From assembly GCA_030434245.1 (NCBI GenBank), contig JAUISX010000006.1, forward strand, positions 124,001 to 188,000: a DNA stretch of 64,000 nucleotides. Reading direction: 5' to 3'. Below, piece by piece: positions 10,772-49,908 of the stretch. Every line of letters starts with the position of its first letter. Position 1 is the stretch's first letter. Origin of the DNA: Porphyromonadaceae bacterium W3.11. Lineage in GTDB: Bacteria > Bacteroidota > Bacteroidia > Bacteroidales > Porphyromonadaceae. The position numbers and the translations under genes were made by a program. The notes below the pieces were generated by a model, which saw only the letters and a program-made list of their open reading frames with translations, did no database searches and was not told the DNA's origin.

Positions 10772-12061
10772 TTACGATTTAGGAATAGTTATTCTAACTG
10801 TATAGATAGCATTCTTTATCTCAGTTTCATTCGCATTTGCAAGCCTGACCTTTATGTCAAGGAAATCACCTAATTCTTTTACTTCCTCTACAACAAATTT
10901 TGGCTCTATTAAGTAGATATCTTTGTACCGTTTTTGAGCGGAATCAGGCTCTAGTACCTTTTGTTTATTTTGAGAATGAGTATATCCCCAAACTAACTCA
11001 ATTTCCTCATGACCATATTTTACTGAGAATTGGAGATATTGGCTCCACTTTTCAGCATACCGATTTAATATATTCAAGTCTGCTCGTGAGCCTCGATAAA
11101 ATTTGTAGAAGCTTTCAGCAAAGCCACTACCCGCTCCGATGGTAAGCTCTTTAGCCAGTTCATCTAGTGATTTAAATCCATCCAATGTGTATGCTATGGT
11201 CGCCATTTCTCCATCGAGGTTGTGTGGTAGTACCGCAACTGTCATACTAAGAGAATTTCCAACTTTCGAACAAGATTTTGGAATTAAATCGTATCGGTTT
11301 TCGTCATAGTCGAAGAGCTCTGCTACAAAGAGGCTTGGAAATTCATTAACTCCTTGCATGTAGAGGTTGATTTTTTTCTTCGGTTTAATTCTTGCCAGTA
11401 AGTACTTTTCACGAGAAAAATTAAGATTTAAATCCTTTTCAAAGTTTTGTGTTGCAAATTTTGCTTTAAAGGTGATTATACCACTATCATATTTGAAATT
11501 GGATAGTTGCAATAAATCTAGATCCTCATCTGTAAGTGTGTAAATATTTGTCCCACTAACATCTGTAGCACGAAAAGAAACATACTTAGCAAGGCTTTTG
11601 ACACTAAATGAGGCATCCATCCCATTTATAAATAATGGATCTAGGTTTAATGTCATTACCTCATAAATGTCCTCAGGGCTAATCCATTGAGCATATAAGC
11701 GTCTAGCAATATCGAAATCTGAAGGTCGTTTACTATCGCCTTCATTCGGCTTGTCGTTGTCGTCCTCCTTAGGATTCTCGTTATCGCCTTCATTCGGCTT
11801 GTCGTTGTCGTCCTCCTTGGGCTTCTCGTTATCGCCTTCATTTGGTTTGTCGTTGTCATCCTCCTTAGGCTTCTCGTCATCGCCTTCATTCGGCTTGTCG
11901 TTGTCGTCCTCCTTGGGATTTTCTTTGTCGCCTTCTTTAGGCTTGTTTGAATCGTCTCGATTCTCGGTGTTATTAGGATTACTTGGGGTTTGATGTCCTG
12001 AGTGGCAAGCTGTAACGGCTATAATAGCGATACAGAAAATAATATAAACGATCTTTTTCAT
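10772..12061 (-). CDS. Hypothetical lipoprotein with acidic/proline tandem repeats
   Basis: I do not recognise the family. The 429-residue product has a lipoprotein signal with lipobox VTAC (Cys19), so it should be anchored in an envelope membrane. Residues about 38-109 are a highly charged spacer made of 16-residue repeats of the form NDKPNEGDNEKPKEDD. Residues about 115-429 form a mixed domain without visible catalytic motif; it contains LARIKPKKKINLYMQG and ends KNAIYTVRITIPKS. The spacer probably holds the C-terminal domain away from the membrane. The gene has its own likely promoter (12199-12207) and its own terminator (10705-10748), so it is monocistronic. Confidence 0.7.
   Translation of the reverse strand: MKKIVYIIFCIAIIAVTACHSGHQTPSNPNNTENRDDSNKPKEGDKENPKEDDNDKPNEGDDEKPKEDDNDKPNEGDNEKPKEDDNDKPNEGDNENPKEDDNDKPNEGDSKRPSDFDIARRLYAQWISPEDIYEVMTLNLDPLFINGMDASFSVKSLAKYVSFRATDVSGTNIYTLTDEDLDLLQLSNFKYDSGIITFKAKFATQNFEKDLNLNFSREKYLLARIKPKKKINLYMQGVNEFPSLFVAELFDYDENRYDLIPKSCSKVGNSLSMTVAVLPHNLDGEMATIAYTLDGFKSLDELAKELTIGAGSGFAESFYKFYRGSRADLNILNRYAEKWSQYLQFSVKYGHEEIELVWGYTHSQNKQKVLEPDSAQKRYKDIYLIEPKFVVEEVKELGDFLDIKVRLANANETEIKNAIYTVRITIPKS
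11735..11950 (-). repeat. 48-bp tandem repeat inside the lipoprotein gene
   Basis: Four units of 48 bp plus half a unit lie in frame, coding for 16-residue repeats. The three inner units (residues 54-101) are nearly identical, the first (38-53) is degenerate. Because 48 is a multiple of 3, gain or loss of a unit keeps the frame, so length change between strains is likely. Confidence 0.85.
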
Positions 12062-18539: not shown

Positions 18540-18565
18540 TTACTGTTATTACAACAGATATATAG

Positions 18566-18639
18566 TGACCGTATTAGGATTCAAACCTAAAACCTTCTGA
18601 TCCGTAGTCAGATGCTCTATTCAGTTGAGCTATACGGCC
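18566..18639 (-). tRNA. tRNA-Arg (anticodon ACG), second copy
   Basis: A 74-base cloverleaf on the minus strand. The acceptor stem GGCCGTA pairs with TACGGTC (one G-U pair), the anticodon stem TCTGA/TCAGA frames loop CTACGGA with anticodon ACG, and the T arm is TTAGG/CCTAA. The 3' CCA is not encoded. Its sequence is identical to the copy at 18704-18777. Confidence 0.95.
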
Positions 18640-18703
18640 AATTTTGTGTCCCCAAAGGGATTTGTAAAAAATAGATGCTGACTCTATAACATCATAAAAA
18701 TAG

Positions 18704-18777
18704 TGACCGTATTAGGATTCAAACCTAAAACCTTCTGATCCGTAGTCAGATGCTCTATTCAGTTGAGCTATACGGCC
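18704..18777 (-). tRNA. tRNA-Arg (anticodon ACG), first copy
   Basis: Identical in all 74 bases to its neighbour, 64 bases apart, in the same orientation. The pair is read from one promoter upstream (18806-18838) and ends at one terminator. The A at position 34 is expected to be edited to inosine. Confidence 0.95.
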
Positions 18778-43721: not shown

Positions 43722-45110
43722 ATGAAAAGCTATAAGCCAGTAATTAAATATATTGGAGGCATTATGTTCATGATGCTTCTATTTGTGTCTTGCAATGATA
43801 AAAGTCAGAATGGTGTATCGCCTCGCTATACAGAGCATACATCACCTGCTAAAGTCACTGTGAAGTTTCCAAAGTCAAGCAAGTTGTCAGAAATGGAATT
43901 TCATATTGACAATAATAAGATGAGAATCTTTAATAAGGATTATTTCCCTTACAAGAGCCAAGTTGATTCTGTATATTTGAGGATGATTGTGAGCACAAAG
44001 GCAACAGTTAAGATCCTAAATGAAACCACTAAGAAAACGATTGTTTACCTCCCAACAGACACTGGTAAAATTGACTTGACTGGAGGTCGTCTGAGAGTCT
44101 CAATTGAGGTCGAGAAAGAGCCGACCATCGTGTATGATATGCGATTGCTGACTTATAGTTATGACCCATCTCAATATACATGGGAAAAGGTGTCCTCCGA
44201 GTTACCTGTTGCAGCTATTAATAGCAAAGTGATTATGCACAAAGGGGAGAGGTATTGGATATCGGAAAACAAAAGTAGTCAACTATCTCTTTATAAGGTA
44301 ACACTTAATCCACTTACTTTTAGTAAGGAAGACGGTGCTAAATTGCCGCTTGGATTCAACCCCACTTCTATATTAGTTGATAAGTATGACAACGCGTGGG
44401 GACTAGATGCGGATGGGGCCCTTTATGTGAGTGATAATCTTAAAGATTGGAATAATGTCCAATTGGGCGATGTTTGTCTCACAATGCTTCTTTCTGATGT
44501 CTCAGCTCTGTCTGAAACCAGCGAGATTTCGGCAGTGGGATTTTCTAAAGCAGATGAAAATATATATTTTACTTTCACAATTGGGAAGAATGGTATCATT
44601 AAACGTGATAAAGAGGCCTTGAGTCCTATATTTCCTGTAAGAGATGCTTTTGTGTACACCTATGAGATTGGGGGGATACAGCATTCTTATATTCTAGGAG
44701 GGGTTATGAAAGATGGGAAGCCAGCACCTACAAGTTTCTTTACCTCAGATGGTGTTAGATGGGGTAAGACTCCATATACAGGAGACAAACAAGACGTGCC
44801 AAGCAAGGGAGGATTATTTCTTAGGTCACCTATTGATCAAGGGGTATTTATAATTGGTGGACTCTATGATGGGAATCCATCTAATGTCATAAAGTCTAGC
44901 ATGGATAGGGGCACGACTTGGAGCGAGTTGATTAAGAATCAAGCTCCAGGTAGTACCTTCGATGCAAGAATCAATTCATCAGGTATGATTTTGGACAAAG
45001 AGAAGGACATCGAGTTTTATATCTTTGGTGGTATCACTTCTGGTACACCAAGTACCGAGATATGGCATGGCTGGTTAGATCGATCTGCTGGTATTATCAA
45101 TGATTTCTGA
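43722..45110 (+). CDS. Probable beta-propeller lipoprotein (DUF6242-like)
   Basis: The 462-residue product has a lipoprotein signal with lipobox FVSC (Cys24). A first beta domain (about 40-150) is followed by kelch- or BNR-like blades: WEKVSSELPVAAINSKVIMHKGERYWI, TSFFTSDGVRWGKTPYTG and SSMDRGTTWSELIKN. It looks like DUF6242 proteins of Bacteroidales, but I am not certain. Function unknown; a surface or periplasmic binding role is a guess. A -7 box (TATCTTTG) lies at 43657-43664. It ends 16 bases before uppS. Confidence 0.7.
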   Translation: MKSYKPVIKYIGGIMFMMLLFVSCNDKSQNGVSPRYTEHTSPAKVTVKFPKSSKLSEMEFHIDNNKMRIFNKDYFPYKSQVDSVYLRMIVSTKATVKILNETTKKTIVYLPTDTGKIDLTGGRLRVSIEVEKEPTIVYDMRLLTYSYDPSQYTWEKVSSELPVAAINSKVIMHKGERYWISENKSSQLSLYKVTLNPLTFSKEDGAKLPLGFNPTSILVDKYDNAWGLDADGALYVSDNLKDWNNVQLGDVCLTMLLSDVSALSETSEISAVGFSKADENIYFTFTIGKNGIIKRDKEALSPIFPVRDAFVYTYEIGGIQHSYILGGVMKDGKPAPTSFFTSDGVRWGKTPYTGDKQDVPSKGGLFLRSPIDQGVFIIGGLYDGNPSNVIKSSMDRGTTWSELIKNQAPGSTFDARINSSGMILDKEKDIEFYIFGGITSGTPSTEIWHGWLDRSAGIINDF

Positions 45111-45126
45111 ATGATTATTTGATTGT

Positions 45127-45861
45127 ATGGAGGAAATGCATTCTCAACAGCTTGATATGAGTCGTATCCCGCATCATATTGCTATCATAATGGATGGTAA
45201 TGGACGATGGGCAAAGGAGCAAGGGCATGATAGATATTATGGTCATGTTAATGGTGTTGAATCCGTTAGGAATATATTAAAAGAAGCCATCCGCTTAGGT
45301 GTTAAGATGATGACTTTGTACACCTTTTCCGAGGAGAATTGGCGACGTCCTAAGGATGAGGTCTCATCGTTAATGTCTCTATTGTCCGAAGTGATTCAGG
45401 ATGAACTAGCAGAACTAAAGGAGGAGGGTGTGAGGTTGTTGGTCATTGGAGATACCAATGTTTTGCCAAAAGAGTCGAGGGATGCTTTAGAGCTGGCAGT
45501 TGAGGAAACAAAGGAGAATGATGCGTTTTCATTGATTTTGGCCATCAACTATTCTGGGAGGACAGAGATTTTGAGAGCTGCTAATCAGTTACAAAAAGAG
45601 GCCACTCCTATTACAGAAGAGAGCTTTAGGAGGGCACTTTATAAAGATGTTCCTGATCCAGACTTACTCATAAGGACAGGGGGGGAACAGAGGATAAGTA
45701 ACTTCTTATTGTGGCAGATGGCATACACAGAATTGTATTTCACGTCTGTGTATTGGCCAGCTTTTGATGAGCTGGAGTTTCATAAGGCCATATATGATTA
45801 TCAGAACAGACAAAGACGGTTTGGTATGACAGGTGATCAAATAGAGGCACTAAAGAAGTAA
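45127..45861 (+). CDS. uppS: Isoprenyl transferase (undecaprenyl diphosphate synthase)
   Basis: UppS builds the C55 lipid carrier used for wall and surface sugars. The 244-residue chain has the catalytic D23 in AIIMDGNGRWAK, YTFSEENWRRP and the C-terminal RTGGEQRISNFLLWQMAYTE. A start at M11 is possible; the first ten residues are not conserved. It lies ahead of bamA, a common order in this phylum. Confidence 0.95.
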   Translation: MEEMHSQQLDMSRIPHHIAIIMDGNGRWAKEQGHDRYYGHVNGVESVRNILKEAIRLGVKMMTLYTFSEENWRRPKDEVSSLMSLLSEVIQDELAELKEEGVRLLVIGDTNVLPKESRDALELAVEETKENDAFSLILAINYSGRTEILRAANQLQKEATPITEESFRRALYKDVPDPDLLIRTGGEQRISNFLLWQMAYTELYFTSVYWPAFDELEFHKAIYDYQNRQRRFGMTGDQIEALKK

Positions 45862-45914: not shown

Positions 45915-48710
45915 ATGATATCAAGGATGAAGAACCCTTTTGTAGGCTGGATAACTCGCTCTTTCTATATTGGGCTTTTGGGTGTAATGGGCTTTGCTGC
46001 TCCATTGAATACGATTAAGGCACAGGTGAACGATGCTTCTGTGAAGGACACCCCACCCGAGGTCTCTTATGCAAGACCTGTAAATAAAGTATTGGCGGGA
46101 ATCGAAGTACGTGGTAATAAGAGTTATGAAGATGAGGTCATCATCAATGTCTCTGGACTTAGAGTTGGACAACGGATTGATATTCCAGGTGAGGACATCA
46201 CGATGGCGCTTCAGCGTTATTTGCGTAACGGGTTCTTTAGTGAGGTGAGTATCGAAGCCACAAAGATTCAAGGTGACTCAGCGTGGATAGCGATTAATAT
46301 AAAGGAACGCCCACGTCTTTCGCAACTAAATATTAATGGCGTCAAGAAGTCTGAAGCTGACAATCTAAAAAAAGGAAAGCTATTAGCACTCCAACAAGGC
46401 GTCCAAATAACCCCTAATACCATTGATCGTGCTGAATTGGAGATTAAGAAATTCTTTGATGAGAAAGGATTCAGTACAGCTTCCGTAGAAACAATTCTAA
46501 CTCCAGATTCACTCAATAATTTCGTCACTGTTGATTTTAATATCAGGAAGAATACCAAGACAAAAGTAGAGCGAATCAACTTTATTGGTAATAAGAACTT
46601 ATCTGATTCAGATCTTCGTAAAGCAATGAAGAAGACCAATGAGCGATTTAATCTTGCTGCTAATGGTTGGAATAGTGTATTGGAGATCTTCAGTCAGAAG
46701 AAGTTCGTCGAAGACGAATATAAAGCAGACCTCAATAAAATCATCGCAAAGTATCATGAGTATGGCTTCCGTGATGCCGAAATTGTGAGAGATACGATCT
46801 ATTGGTTTAATGACAAAAGGGTCAATATAGATATAGAGATTTATGAAGGTAAGCAATACTTTATTAAGGATATTAACTTCGTTGGTAATACACGATATTC
46901 AACTGAAGATTTAAGCAGATTGCTAAACCTAAAGCCTGGAGACGTCTATGATCAAAAGAAGCTAAATGATAGGCTAACGGTTGATGAAGATGCGTTATCA
47001 AACATATATGCAAATAACGGTTATCTCTTTGCTTACATTCTTCCTATCGAGACAGAAGTAAAGGATGATTCCGTATCGTTAGATATCCGAATTACAGAAG
47101 GGAAGCCTGCTCGTATTAATAAGGTTACTATTAGAGGTAATGATCATGTGTATGAAGAGGTAGTTCGTCGTGAGCTATATACCAAGCCTGGTATGCTCTT
47201 CAATCGTGATTTTGTGATTAGATCTATTAGACAAATTGGTCAGATGGGACACTTTGATCCAGAGAAGATCAATCCAGAACTTCTTCCTAATGAGAATAAT
47301 GGTACGGTAGATATAGCTTGGCAGTTAGAGCCAAAATCTAATGACCAAGTAGAGCTTTCGGTTGGGTGGAGTCAAACCGGATTGATTTTATCAGGTGGTT
47401 TGAAGTTTACTAATTTCTCTATGAGAAATCTATTCAATCCTAAGTCATATAGAGGTTACTTACCAAGAGGGGACGGACAGACATTATCATTAAGAGTTCA
47501 GACCAATGCTAGATATTATCAAAGTTATAGCATTAGTTTTATGGACCCATGGTTTGGTCGCAAACGTCCTAATATGCTTAGTCTTTCAGCCTATTATAGC
47601 CGACAAACGGATATTAATAGAAACTTCTTTAATGCCCAAACACAGAACCTTCAGATGCTAGATCCTTATGGTTATGGTGGTTATGGTGGTTATGGCGGCT
47701 ACGGAGGTTATGGCGGTTATGGTATGCCTTATGGTGGTGGTTACGGTGGCTATGGCGGTTACGGCGGTTATGGTGGCTACGGGGGCTATGGATATGATTA
47801 TGCTGGCTTGTATGAAAGTGCCTATGATCCAAATAAAACGCTGGATATGCTAGGCTTGGGTGTCGCTTATGGTAAGAGATTGTCATGGCCTGATGATAAC
47901 TTCCAAATTCAATTAGGGCTAAACTATACCATGTATAGGATGAAGAACTGGAGCTCATATTACTATAACTTTGGTATTGAGAATGGTGTAGCAAATGATA
48001 TTAATCTTAATGCAACACTAGTAAGAAGTTCTACAGATAGCCCAATCTATACACGTACAGGTTCAGAATTCACACTTAATGCTAGTAGTACTCTTCCATA
48101 TTCTCTATTTGACAAAGTAGATTATTCAGATCCTAACCTTTCACCAGGAGAGAGATATAAGTTTATAGAGTATTATAAACTTAAGGGTAAGGGACAAGTC
48201 TATATTCCTCTACTGGATCCTAATACTAATAAAAGGACTCCCGTATTGATGTTCAGTGCAGAATCTGGTATCATTGGTTCCTATAATAAGAATAAACGCT
48301 CTCCATTCGGAACTTACTATATGGGAGGTGATGGAATGAGTAGCTATTATGGTTATCTCAATGAAATGATTGGACTTAGAGGGTATAAGAATGGTAGTAT
48401 CTCTGGTGCTTCTGGAGCTGGAGCCTATTCATACTCTAAGATCTATATGGAGCTAAGGTACCCTATTATTTCAGAAAATAGTACTATGATTTGGGTCCAT
48501 GCGTTTGCAGAAGCAGGGAATGCTTGGCAATATGTTAGAGATATGAACCCATTCCAACTTAAACGTTCTGCAGGATTAGGAGTCAGAGTATTCCTACCAA
48601 TGGGACTTGGAGTTGTTGGACTTGACTGGGGATATGGATTTGATAGACCAGATGGTTCAAGCACTAAGGGGGGTAGCAATCTCCACTTTGTCCTTGGTCA
48701 GCAGTTTTAA
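45915..48710 (+). CDS. bamA: Outer membrane assembly factor BamA with Gly-Tyr-rich insert
   Basis: BamA inserts beta-barrel proteins into the outer membrane. The 931-residue protein has a signal peptide (cleavage near AQ at 36-37), five POTRA domains over about 50-440 (for example AGIEVRGNKSYEDEVIINVSG and RINFIGNKNLSDSDLRKAMKK) and a C-terminal barrel ending in LHFVLGQQF, with the terminal Phe. Within the barrel, residues 584-629 are an insert of Gly-Gly-Tyr repeats. The start at M5 is an alternative. It is larger than the Escherichia coli protein (about 810). The two Skp genes follow directly. Confidence 0.95.
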   Translation: MISRMKNPFVGWITRSFYIGLLGVMGFAAPLNTIKAQVNDASVKDTPPEVSYARPVNKVLAGIEVRGNKSYEDEVIINVSGLRVGQRIDIPGEDITMALQRYLRNGFFSEVSIEATKIQGDSAWIAINIKERPRLSQLNINGVKKSEADNLKKGKLLALQQGVQITPNTIDRAELEIKKFFDEKGFSTASVETILTPDSLNNFVTVDFNIRKNTKTKVERINFIGNKNLSDSDLRKAMKKTNERFNLAANGWNSVLEIFSQKKFVEDEYKADLNKIIAKYHEYGFRDAEIVRDTIYWFNDKRVNIDIEIYEGKQYFIKDINFVGNTRYSTEDLSRLLNLKPGDVYDQKKLNDRLTVDEDALSNIYANNGYLFAYILPIETEVKDDSVSLDIRITEGKPARINKVTIRGNDHVYEEVVRRELYTKPGMLFNRDFVIRSIRQIGQMGHFDPEKINPELLPNENNGTVDIAWQLEPKSNDQVELSVGWSQTGLILSGGLKFTNFSMRNLFNPKSYRGYLPRGDGQTLSLRVQTNARYYQSYSISFMDPWFGRKRPNMLSLSAYYSRQTDINRNFFNAQTQNLQMLDPYGYGGYGGYGGYGGYGGYGMPYGGGYGGYGGYGGYGGYGGYGYDYAGLYESAYDPNKTLDMLGLGVAYGKRLSWPDDNFQIQLGLNYTMYRMKNWSSYYYNFGIENGVANDINLNATLVRSSTDSPIYTRTGSEFTLNASSTLPYSLFDKVDYSDPNLSPGERYKFIEYYKLKGKGQVYIPLLDPNTNKRTPVLMFSAESGIIGSYNKNKRSPFGTYYMGGDGMSSYYGYLNEMIGLRGYKNGSISGASGAGAYSYSKIYMELRYPIISENSTMIWVHAFAEAGNAWQYVRDMNPFQLKRSAGLGVRVFLPMGLGVVGLDWGYGFDRPDGSSTKGGSNLHFVLGQQF
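47664..47802 (+). repeat. Gly-Gly-Tyr-coding repeat tract in bamA
   Basis: About 46 codons alternate between GGT/GGC and TAT/TAC to give stacked GGY units, broken once by MPYGGG. The nine-base repeats vary at third positions, so the amino acid pattern is kept while the DNA repeat is softened. Confidence 0.85.
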
Positions 48711-48746: not shown

Positions 48747-49271
48747 ATGAAGAGAATTTTACTATTAATAGTGACAGCAATGATGTCCGTCGGTGCATTA
48801 GTAGCTCAGGAAGCAAATTATGCACTAATTGATATGCAGTATCTGATGGGGCAGATCCCTCAGTACAAATCTGCTACTGAGCAGATTGAAAAGCAAAGTG
48901 ATAAATGGAGTAATGAGATTAAGAAGCTACAGGATCAAGCAAAAGATCTCTATATTCAGTATCAAAAAGATCTTCCAACGATGAATTCATCTGACCGTGT
49001 TAAGAGAGAGAATGCCATTGTGAAAGTCGAGGATCAAGCTGCTCAATTACAGCAAAAGTATTTTGGAAGAGATGGAGAGCTAATGAAGTTACAATCCAAA
49101 CTTATCAAGCCCCTTCAGGACAAGATCTACGAAGCGGTAAAGCTCATTAGTCAAAGACGTGGTTACTTAATCGTTTTTGATAGAGCTTCATCTGTTGGAA
49201 GTATAATTTATGCTGATCCAGCGGCAGATATTAGCAATGAAGTTCTTGCTGTGTTAGGTTATTCCAATTAA
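48747..49271 (+). CDS. OmpH/Skp family periplasmic chaperone, first copy
   Basis: Skp chaperones hold unfolded outer membrane proteins in the periplasm. The 174-residue protein has a signal peptide (MKRILLLIVTAMMSVGALVA, then QEANYALIDM) and a long coiled coil (about 50-130, for example QIEKQSDKWSNEIKKLQDQA) that would form the tentacles. It lies 36 bases after bamA and fits its function. Confidence 0.9.
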   Translation: MKRILLLIVTAMMSVGALVAQEANYALIDMQYLMGQIPQYKSATEQIEKQSDKWSNEIKKLQDQAKDLYIQYQKDLPTMNSSDRVKRENAIVKVEDQAAQLQQKYFGRDGELMKLQSKLIKPLQDKIYEAVKLISQRRGYLIVFDRASSVGSIIYADPAADISNEVLAVLGYSN

Positions 49272-49407: not shown

Positions 49408-49908
49408 ATGAAGAAGATTTTACTATCACTAACCCTCCTATTTTTACCTTTCTTGGCATTCGCTCAGAGTGCACAAAAAGTTGCAGTTGTTGACACTCAG
49501 GCGATCTTAATGTCTATGCCAGAGACTAAGCAGATGCAAACTGAGTTAGATGCATTGATGAAAAAGTATGAGGATACTATTGTAGTCATGCAAGAAGAAT
49601 TCCAGACCAAGTATCAAGCTTTTGTAGCTGAACAAGAGGGTATGGTAGAGAGTATTAAGCTTCGTAAGGAGCAGGAGCTTCAGGACTTAGCAAAAAGACT
49701 TGAGGATTTGAATTCTGTAGCACAGGAAGATGTTAGAAAAAAACAAACTGAGCTATTCACTCCAATCCAAAAGAAGCTAATGGATGCAATCAATAATGTA
49801 GGCAACGAAAATGGTTATGCTTACGTAATCGATAAGTCAACTATGGTGTATGTAGGTGCTAATGGTATTGACGCTACTGCACAAGTGAAAGCTAAGCTAG
49901 GCTTGTAA
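49408..49908 (+). CDS. OmpH/Skp family periplasmic chaperone, second copy
   Basis: A paralogue of the preceding gene, 166 residues. The signal peptide (MKKILLSLTLLFLPFLAFA, then QSAQKVAVVDTQ) is followed by a coiled coil with many Glu, Gln and Lys (EEFQTKYQAFVAEQEGMVES). It ends with the ALxxVGNENGYAYVIDKS-like fold-back of the body domain. Two different subunits could form mixed trimers; that is inference. A strong terminator follows. Confidence 0.9.
   Translation: MKKILLSLTLLFLPFLAFAQSAQKVAVVDTQAILMSMPETKQMQTELDALMKKYEDTIVVMQEEFQTKYQAFVAEQEGMVESIKLRKEQELQDLAKRLEDLNSVAQEDVRKKQTELFTPIQKKLMDAINNVGNENGYAYVIDKSTMVYVGANGIDATAQVKAKLGL

Follow-up and report, generated by a model that had tools for sequence, protein, structure and literature searches.

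The stretch of DNA analysed here (the window, 64,000 nucleotides of Porphyromonadaceae bacterium W3.11) contains a bamA gene in which the part coding for the barrel includes a long array of Gly-Gly-Tyr units, and the question raised by this locus is what such an array is and what it may do in BamA. In short, the repeat is real, was noticed correctly in an earlier sequence-only reading of the window, and is already described in kind: it is an extreme member of a known loop.

The open reading frame passes the BamA equivalog profile TIGR03303 (328.7 bits, cut-off 297.15), matches the POTRA model PF07244 in five stretches and has its best solved relative in the P. gingivalis BAM (9hjm_A, E 4.8e-297); equivalog score, POTRA repeats and C-terminal barrel all identify its product as BamA. 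Among the BamA compared, the closest from a named species is that of Porphyromonas somerae DSM 23386 (L058, 75%), the last 500 residues of which are identical to those of G005 from the window's genus. The gene order is bamI-uppS-bamA-ompH-ompH (Table 1). Among the components by which a dome-type BAM is recognised, BamI is represented by the DUF6242 homologue that adjoins uppS-bamA, and a BamH homologue (DUF4270) is encoded at G000:C1:182729-184084 (9hjm_G, E 5.6e-56); DUF4270 was found in all eight genomes asked, G249 included. FKBP_C has four matches in the genome, and two proteins were compared with the PDB. One of them is a candidate BamJ (L340 1270-1797), which matches 9his_I (E 5e-10) and 9hjm_I (E 5.8e-6), with other FKBPs scoring higher. 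The other (L338 603-1448) was rejected as BamJ or BamK, as it matched FKBP-type isomerases (FkpA, MIP) and no 9his or 9hjm chain among the 60 of 150 matches listed. For BamG, a FadL-type barrel, no match to PF03349 was obtained in G000, a model that would miss a diverged BamG.

Table 1. Features of the bamA locus (positions of the window) and their description
Feature	Position	Strand	Description
bamI homologue (DUF6242 lipoprotein)	43722..45110	+	two genes upstream of bamA; 9hjm_H, E 5.4e-17; PF19755, 87.9 bits (cut-off 29)
uppS	45127..45861	+	between bamI and bamA
bamA	45915..48710	+	931 aa; POTRA repeats and C-terminal barrel
Asp566	47610..47612	+	aspartate of SRQTD, start of EL3
Extracellular loop 3 (EL3)	47616..47822	+	aa 568-636, between strand 5 (aa 554-567) and strand 6 (aa 637-656); AlphaFold2 barrel model
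GGY tract	47664..47795	+	BamA aa 584-627, 44 residues, no charged residue
OmpH/Skp-like periplasmic chaperone, copy 1	48747..49271	+	
OmpH/Skp-like periplasmic chaperone, copy 2	49408..49908	+	

Two further repetitive features of the window are recorded in their own right. A tandem array with a 48-base unit in 4.4 copies (11734-11946) lies inside a 429-aa minus-strand frame (10772-12061) and encodes an acidic repeat of the DDNDKPNEGD type after a lipoprotein-like N terminus. At 18565-18777 on the minus strand there is a tandem pair of tRNA-Arg(acg), the starts of which are 138 bases apart in a duplicated segment.

The tract in BamA reads PYGYGGYGGYGGYGGYGGYGMPYGGGYGGYGGYGGYGGYGGYGY, a run made up entirely of Gly, Tyr, Pro and Met. 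Over 2000 shuffles of the same protein the longest such run was 9 residues as compared to the 44 observed, and the highest Gly plus Tyr count per 44 residues was 20 as compared to 41. The tract is also the Tyr-richest 30-residue stretch of the window, with 10 Tyr versus 6 in the runner-up of a set of 51 non-overlapping frames with 100 codons or more, and at the DNA level the pattern for GGYGGYGGY, searched without mismatches, has seven matches in the genome of 2,628,695 bases, all of them overlapping within the tract. The GGY-rich segment reported for the barrel domain is thereby confirmed, its true end lying about two codons before the position first given (47802). Assembly error or very recent slippage was rejected as its source, since the 11 GGY units are spelled by nine different DNA words and comparable tracts occur in relatives. 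A His-rich minus-strand frame of 121 aa (47629-47994) was judged by eye not to be a gene and to be the mirror product of the repeat. Other GGY-like tblastn matches in relatives (L194, L195, L196) were rejected as low complexity and not BamA; L194 and L195 we take to be DnaJ-like proteins with a Gly/Phe linker, and L196 is presumably a polysaccharide tyrosine-kinase-like protein with a Tyr/Gly cluster at its C terminus.

In an AlphaFold2 model of the barrel, for which the window sequence and 58 of 79 prepared relatives served as input (mean pLDDT 76), the tract is flanked by strands 82-95 and 165-184 in model numbering, and it falls in the predicted topology between strands 5 and 6, after the first strands as had been proposed. 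Foldseek superimposes the model on 9hjm_A with a TM score of 0.95 by target length and an rmsd of 1.7. Counted from the POTRA side, the strands place the loop outside the cell, so that of the two locations originally considered, surface or periplasm, the first stands and the second is ruled out by the strand count in the predicted barrel. The pLDDT stays below 50 across residues 577-634, and EL3 is thus predicted to be disordered. Surface position in the model, low pLDDT and a length that varies among relatives together bear out the description of an exposed, variable and, by prediction, flexible BamA loop, and we hold it to be nearly certain that the tract is the EL3 of a dome-type Bacteroidales BamA.

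This loop has been described before. The passages on EL3 in Silale et al. 2025 (PMC12578637) report a striking Tyr-rich BamA loop between strands 5 and 6, which comprises 38 aa with 13 Tyr in B. thetaiotaomicron (structures 9HIV/9HJ3) and 39 aa with 12 Tyr in P. gingivalis (9HJM), and in which Tyr, Gly and Asn are enriched across an alignment of 861 BlastP hits; according to the same passages the loop probably projects into the surface-lipoprotein dome, and the authors call its function unclear. The relevant part of Matano et al. 2021 (PMC8546649) describes the eL3 of B. vulgatus as a low-complexity loop of 44 aa with 22 Tyr plus Asn. Beyond these two papers no title among the literature matches listed concerns a Tyr-rich extracellular loop of BamA, and neither 'tyrosine' nor 'EL3' was found by passage search of a 2026 BAM review. 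The window loop resembles the EL3 of Silale et al. in that it sits in the same protein between the same strands, is rich in Tyr and Gly and is disordered, in the window by prediction. It differs in being about 66 aa long on the same footing (81 residues anchor to anchor as compared to 54 in L137, which has a loop that reads as in the 9hjm chain) instead of 38-39 aa, and in being a near-perfect GGY array instead of an irregular Tyr/Asn/Gly sequence. With the B. vulgatus eL3 it shares the position, the low complexity and the Asp at the start, although the subject of that paper, as far as the passages on the loop go, is bacteroidetocin resistance and not a repeat. The F. johnsoniae BAM, in the passages of Liu et al. 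2025 (PMC12611786; 9N2D) that deal with it, has an extracellular canopy, BamG and BamH, and extended BamA loops named T1, L5 and L6; in group f7, assigned to its family by inference, EL3 is 17-19 aa long with 0-4 Tyr (18 sampled rows).

How far the window departs from its relatives was assessed on 115 distinct loops of the order, a set collected by similarity to the window BamA and hence biased to its relatives; 201 rows of the BamA alignment were kept, and 11 duplicates as well as L093 and L194-L196, which are not BamA, were left out. Anchor to anchor, EL3 measures 67-92 residues (median 82.5) with 16-24 Tyr in the 12 distinct BamA of the window's genus, 54-71 residues (median 64) with 8-17 Tyr in the 24 BamA of the other genus of the family, and 32-67 residues (median 50) with 6-19 Tyr in the 79 BamA of other families of the order. 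The window loop has 18 Tyr anchor to anchor, and its core (the loop minus its first 9 and last 10 residues) has 62 aa with 16 Tyr and 27 Gly; its 11 GGY units are the most among the 12 BamA of its genus, the next having 8. The idea of an insert peculiar to the lineage therefore holds for its length and GGY regularity and not for its presence, as the Tyr count of the 115 loops of the order is 6-24 over a length of 32-92 residues, and earlier descriptions of the loop cover B. thetaiotaomicron, P. gingivalis and B. vulgatus. Even great length is not unique to the window's genus, since the distant G492 (L232) has an EL3 of 86 residues with 27 Tyr. This loop is built from a repeated 8-residue unit of the YGYGGYSP type and is perhaps an independent expansion. 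In another order of the class, L099 (G284) has a 40-residue Gly-Met-rich EL3 including GMGGMMGMGGMGMGMGMPGG with one Tyr, the same loop with a different low-complexity filling.

The sequence of the loop cannot be aligned by eye between families. Pooled over the 115 loops, the 4257 core residues are 31.9% Tyr, 23.5% Gly, 13.5% Asn and 9.6% Ser, with no Cys, 0.05% His, 0.14% Val, 0.1% Lys, 0.8% Arg and little Glu or Trp. The window EL3 shares the published enrichment in Tyr and Gly fully and that in Asn only partly, Asn making up 4.8% of the cores in its genus. Codons for Cys, His, Asp, Arg and Val are one base away from Gly or Tyr codons; Cys, His and Val are nearly excluded nonetheless. Charged residues are nearly excluded as well, and what the loop retains is Tyr together with small polar residues. 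The number of Tyr grows with loop length (r 0.77, 115 loops), and the pooled Tyr share amounts to 23-27% of the loop in each of the three groups of the order. EL3 contains the Tyr-richest 30-residue stretch of BamA in 114 of the 115 proteins and the longest run without K, R, D, E or H in 102.

But does such a loop need a function at all? The main rival to our explanation is that EL3 is tolerated low complexity, an exposed loop that grows through slippage and is left to drift, so that selection removes only those residues which would impair solubility or the assembly of the barrel. This would account for five BamA proteins whose identity outside the loop (from alignment column 560 on) is 97.7-99.1% and whose loops have 59, 65, 65, 65 and 68 residues between the anchors, the differences being whole GGY/GYG units, and it agrees with the missing density in the solved structures described in the EL3 passages of PMC12578637. 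The codons speak on both sides. In 11 close pairs, which share the member L190 and whose codon alignment inside the repeats is uncertain, the EL3 core has 168 synonymous and 99 non-synonymous differences, as compared to about 26% synonymous expected without selection, and the part after the loop has 1045 and 219, respectively; the crude non-synonymous to synonymous ratio is 0.21 in the core versus 0.07 in the rest. Judged from these counts, the core is under constraint at the protein level, but looser than the rest of the protein. The looseness is what a tolerated loop would show. The excess of synonymous differences, the steady Tyr share in all three groups and the use of nine DNA words for 11 GGY units argue against it, and we consider it possible but rather improbable that tolerance accounts for the loop.

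A further point against mere tolerance comes from the distribution of the loop. In an even draw of the order (119 genomes, 117 of which gave BamA), a long Tyr-rich EL3, defined after the data were seen as at least 38 aa with at least 9 Tyr, is present in 22 of 117, and the other 95 loops have 7-29 residues with 0-7 Tyr. Thus the tract is no unchanged feature of all Bacteroidales BamA with a known role; it is variable and confined to a minority. Among 86 distinct BamA of other orders and classes of the phylum no long Tyr-rich loop was found, EL3 measuring 8-40 residues with 0-6 Tyr; L147 and L173, whose related loops have 32 residues and 6 Tyr, come closest. The absence of the long loop from these 86 and from 95 of the 117 also counts against tolerated low complexity. 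In the sampled genomes the loop is not phylum-wide and follows one branch of the order, a distribution that the published passages on EL3 do not state, and from which it follows that the enrichment published for 'Bacteroidota' belongs to that branch.

The same branch carries BamI. When BamI is called present on a single DUF6242 match over the cut-off that covers at least 150 of 217 positions, a definition of our own choosing that applies to 21 genomes, the long Tyr-rich EL3 occurs in 20 of these 21 and in 2 of the 96 others. In the draw of the order 39 of 119 genomes have any DUF6242 match and 28 one over the cut-off; the remaining matches are short, or partial and repeated. Absence means here that a genome, G509 included, is missing from the list of matches. 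In the draw of the phylum any match was obtained in 75 of 392 genomes and one over the cut-off in 44; near full-length matches occur in five, all within the order, and those outside it extend over no more than 114 of 217 positions. Of the 20 genomes with BamI and the long loop, 18 have bamI and bamA on one contig and strand, with bamI a few kilobases upstream, and G506 and G465 have bamI on a separate contig. The genome without the loop among the 21, G510, has its DUF6242 match (25-182) on another contig from bamA and an EL3 of 16 aa with 2 Tyr. G502, with a match (49-193) under the cut-off, is not among the 21 and has an EL3 of 19 aa with 3 Tyr. Conversely, G492 and G512 (41 aa, 11 Tyr) have the Tyr-rich loop with no bamI at the uppS-bamA locus, and G249 from the phylum draw has an EL3 of 37 aa with 8 Tyr and no DUF6242 match; the loop therefore does not need BamI.

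The linkage of loop and BamI across the order, together with the proximity of bamI to bamA in 18 of 20 genomes, is what one would expect if EL3 were a docking loop for one fixed lineage-specific partner, as the sequence-only reading had suggested. The published Bacteroidetes Bam structures, to which that reading had pointed as a check, have no density for EL3 in two complexes that contain BamI, from which the authors, in the passages on the loop, infer that it does not bind other BAM subunits (PMC12578637). Moreover, the loop sequence defies alignment by eye between families, and G492 and G512 keep the loop with no BamI at the locus. A fixed partner thus appears very unlikely.

With regard to gain and loss, a quick tree of the barrel without the EL3 columns (123 rows), in which no branch separated the chosen outgroup from the rest and support fell below 80 on 51 of 120 inner branches, unites the 20 genomes with BamI and loop with G509 in one clade (SH-aLRT 100). 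G509, a genome of 1.2 Mb on a long branch (1.18), has an EL3 of 9 residues without Tyr and is not among the DUF6242 matches, and it appears to have lost loop and BamI jointly, if its placement holds. The stretch read upstream of its bamA (L266, L354) yielded no uppS-like frame. A wider clade (99) adds G512, G492, G453, G521 and G440, the last three with shorter loops of 28, 29 and 22 aa containing 5, 6 and 1 Tyr, and the loop may have started before BamI. The tree implies four changes for the loop and three for BamI, with two independent pairs on well-supported branches, too few for a sign test to reach significance; since the genomes belong mostly to one clade, the relation of loop and BamI is an association and not a proof.

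If EL3 is exposed, it could also vary because peptide toxins, phages or proteases meet BamA there, the loop being a surface shield or a target of bacteriocins. The passages on the loop in PMC8546649 trace bacteroidetocin A resistance in four of seven mutants to an Asp where eL3 begins, and Asp566 of the window would, from that description, be this determinant (eL3D). Its column varies within the window's genus (Asp in 8, Gln in 2 and Gly in 2 of 12) and across the order; the second genus of the family has Ala in 22 and Asp in 2 of its 24 BamA, and among the 79 from the remaining families of the order 60 have Asp. The near lack of Lys and Arg in the core would also make it resistant to trypsin-like enzymes. 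On the other hand, the determinant is an Asp at the membrane end and not the repeat itself, acidic residues are scarce in the core as well, so that protease avoidance alone is insufficient, and the loop is thought to lie inside the dome, as the EL3 passages have it (PMC12578637). As an explanation of the loop a shield is therefore improbable; since the bacteroidetocin Asp column varies even within the genus, exposure to bacteriocins or proteases may add to the variation of EL3.

What, then, would the loop be for? We start from what was computed, namely position, predicted disorder, composition, BamI and BamH homologues, unit-wise change in length and constraint at the protein level. We propose that the tract, as the EL3 of a dome-type Bacteroidales BamA, owes its expansion to GGY/GYG codon units gained and lost in frame, and that the loop would hang from BamA into the half-dome of BamG-K. 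There it would act as a tyrosine brush, flexible and uncharged, with weak and many-sided contacts to folding clients, presumably the loops of new barrels and surface lipoproteins, and would dock to no single partner. Such a client-contacting brush fits the predicted disorder of the loop, its polar but uncharged composition, its steady share of Tyr, its loose sequence and its place under the dome. The C-terminal Gly-Met-rich tails of GroEL, with their GGM repeat, are flexible and reach into the folding cavity. The brush may work like these tails, as a flexible Gly-rich segment in a folding cavity, but the likeness is one of function only; GroEL is an unrelated protein of the cytosol that forms an ATP-driven cage, and its tails have Met where EL3 has Tyr. 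Taken as a whole, a GGY-expanded EL3 of dome-type BamA acting as a client-contacting brush is our best explanation, with a probability of roughly 0.55; client contact as the function of EL3 is proposed tentatively and at somewhat less than even odds. A broader version, which we put forward as a rather doubtful speculation, would make the Tyr-rich EL3 a module of the Bacteroidales dome-type BAM that fills an assembly cage outside the cell as a disordered chaperone brush. The module would have arisen at about the point where BamI was added upstream of uppS-bamA and would have disappeared along with BamI from a reduced genome, and gain and loss of GGY units would adjust its length.

EL3 may bear on how Bacteroidota assemble their many surface lipoprotein-barrel complexes. 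Since the loop is confined to the BamI branch in the sampled genomes, the BAM of other orders provides a natural loop-free control, and G492, G512, G249 and G509 are informative exceptions. The uniform GGY array of the window BamA can be shortened, or its Tyr residues replaced, without disturbing other motifs, which makes for a simple test design.
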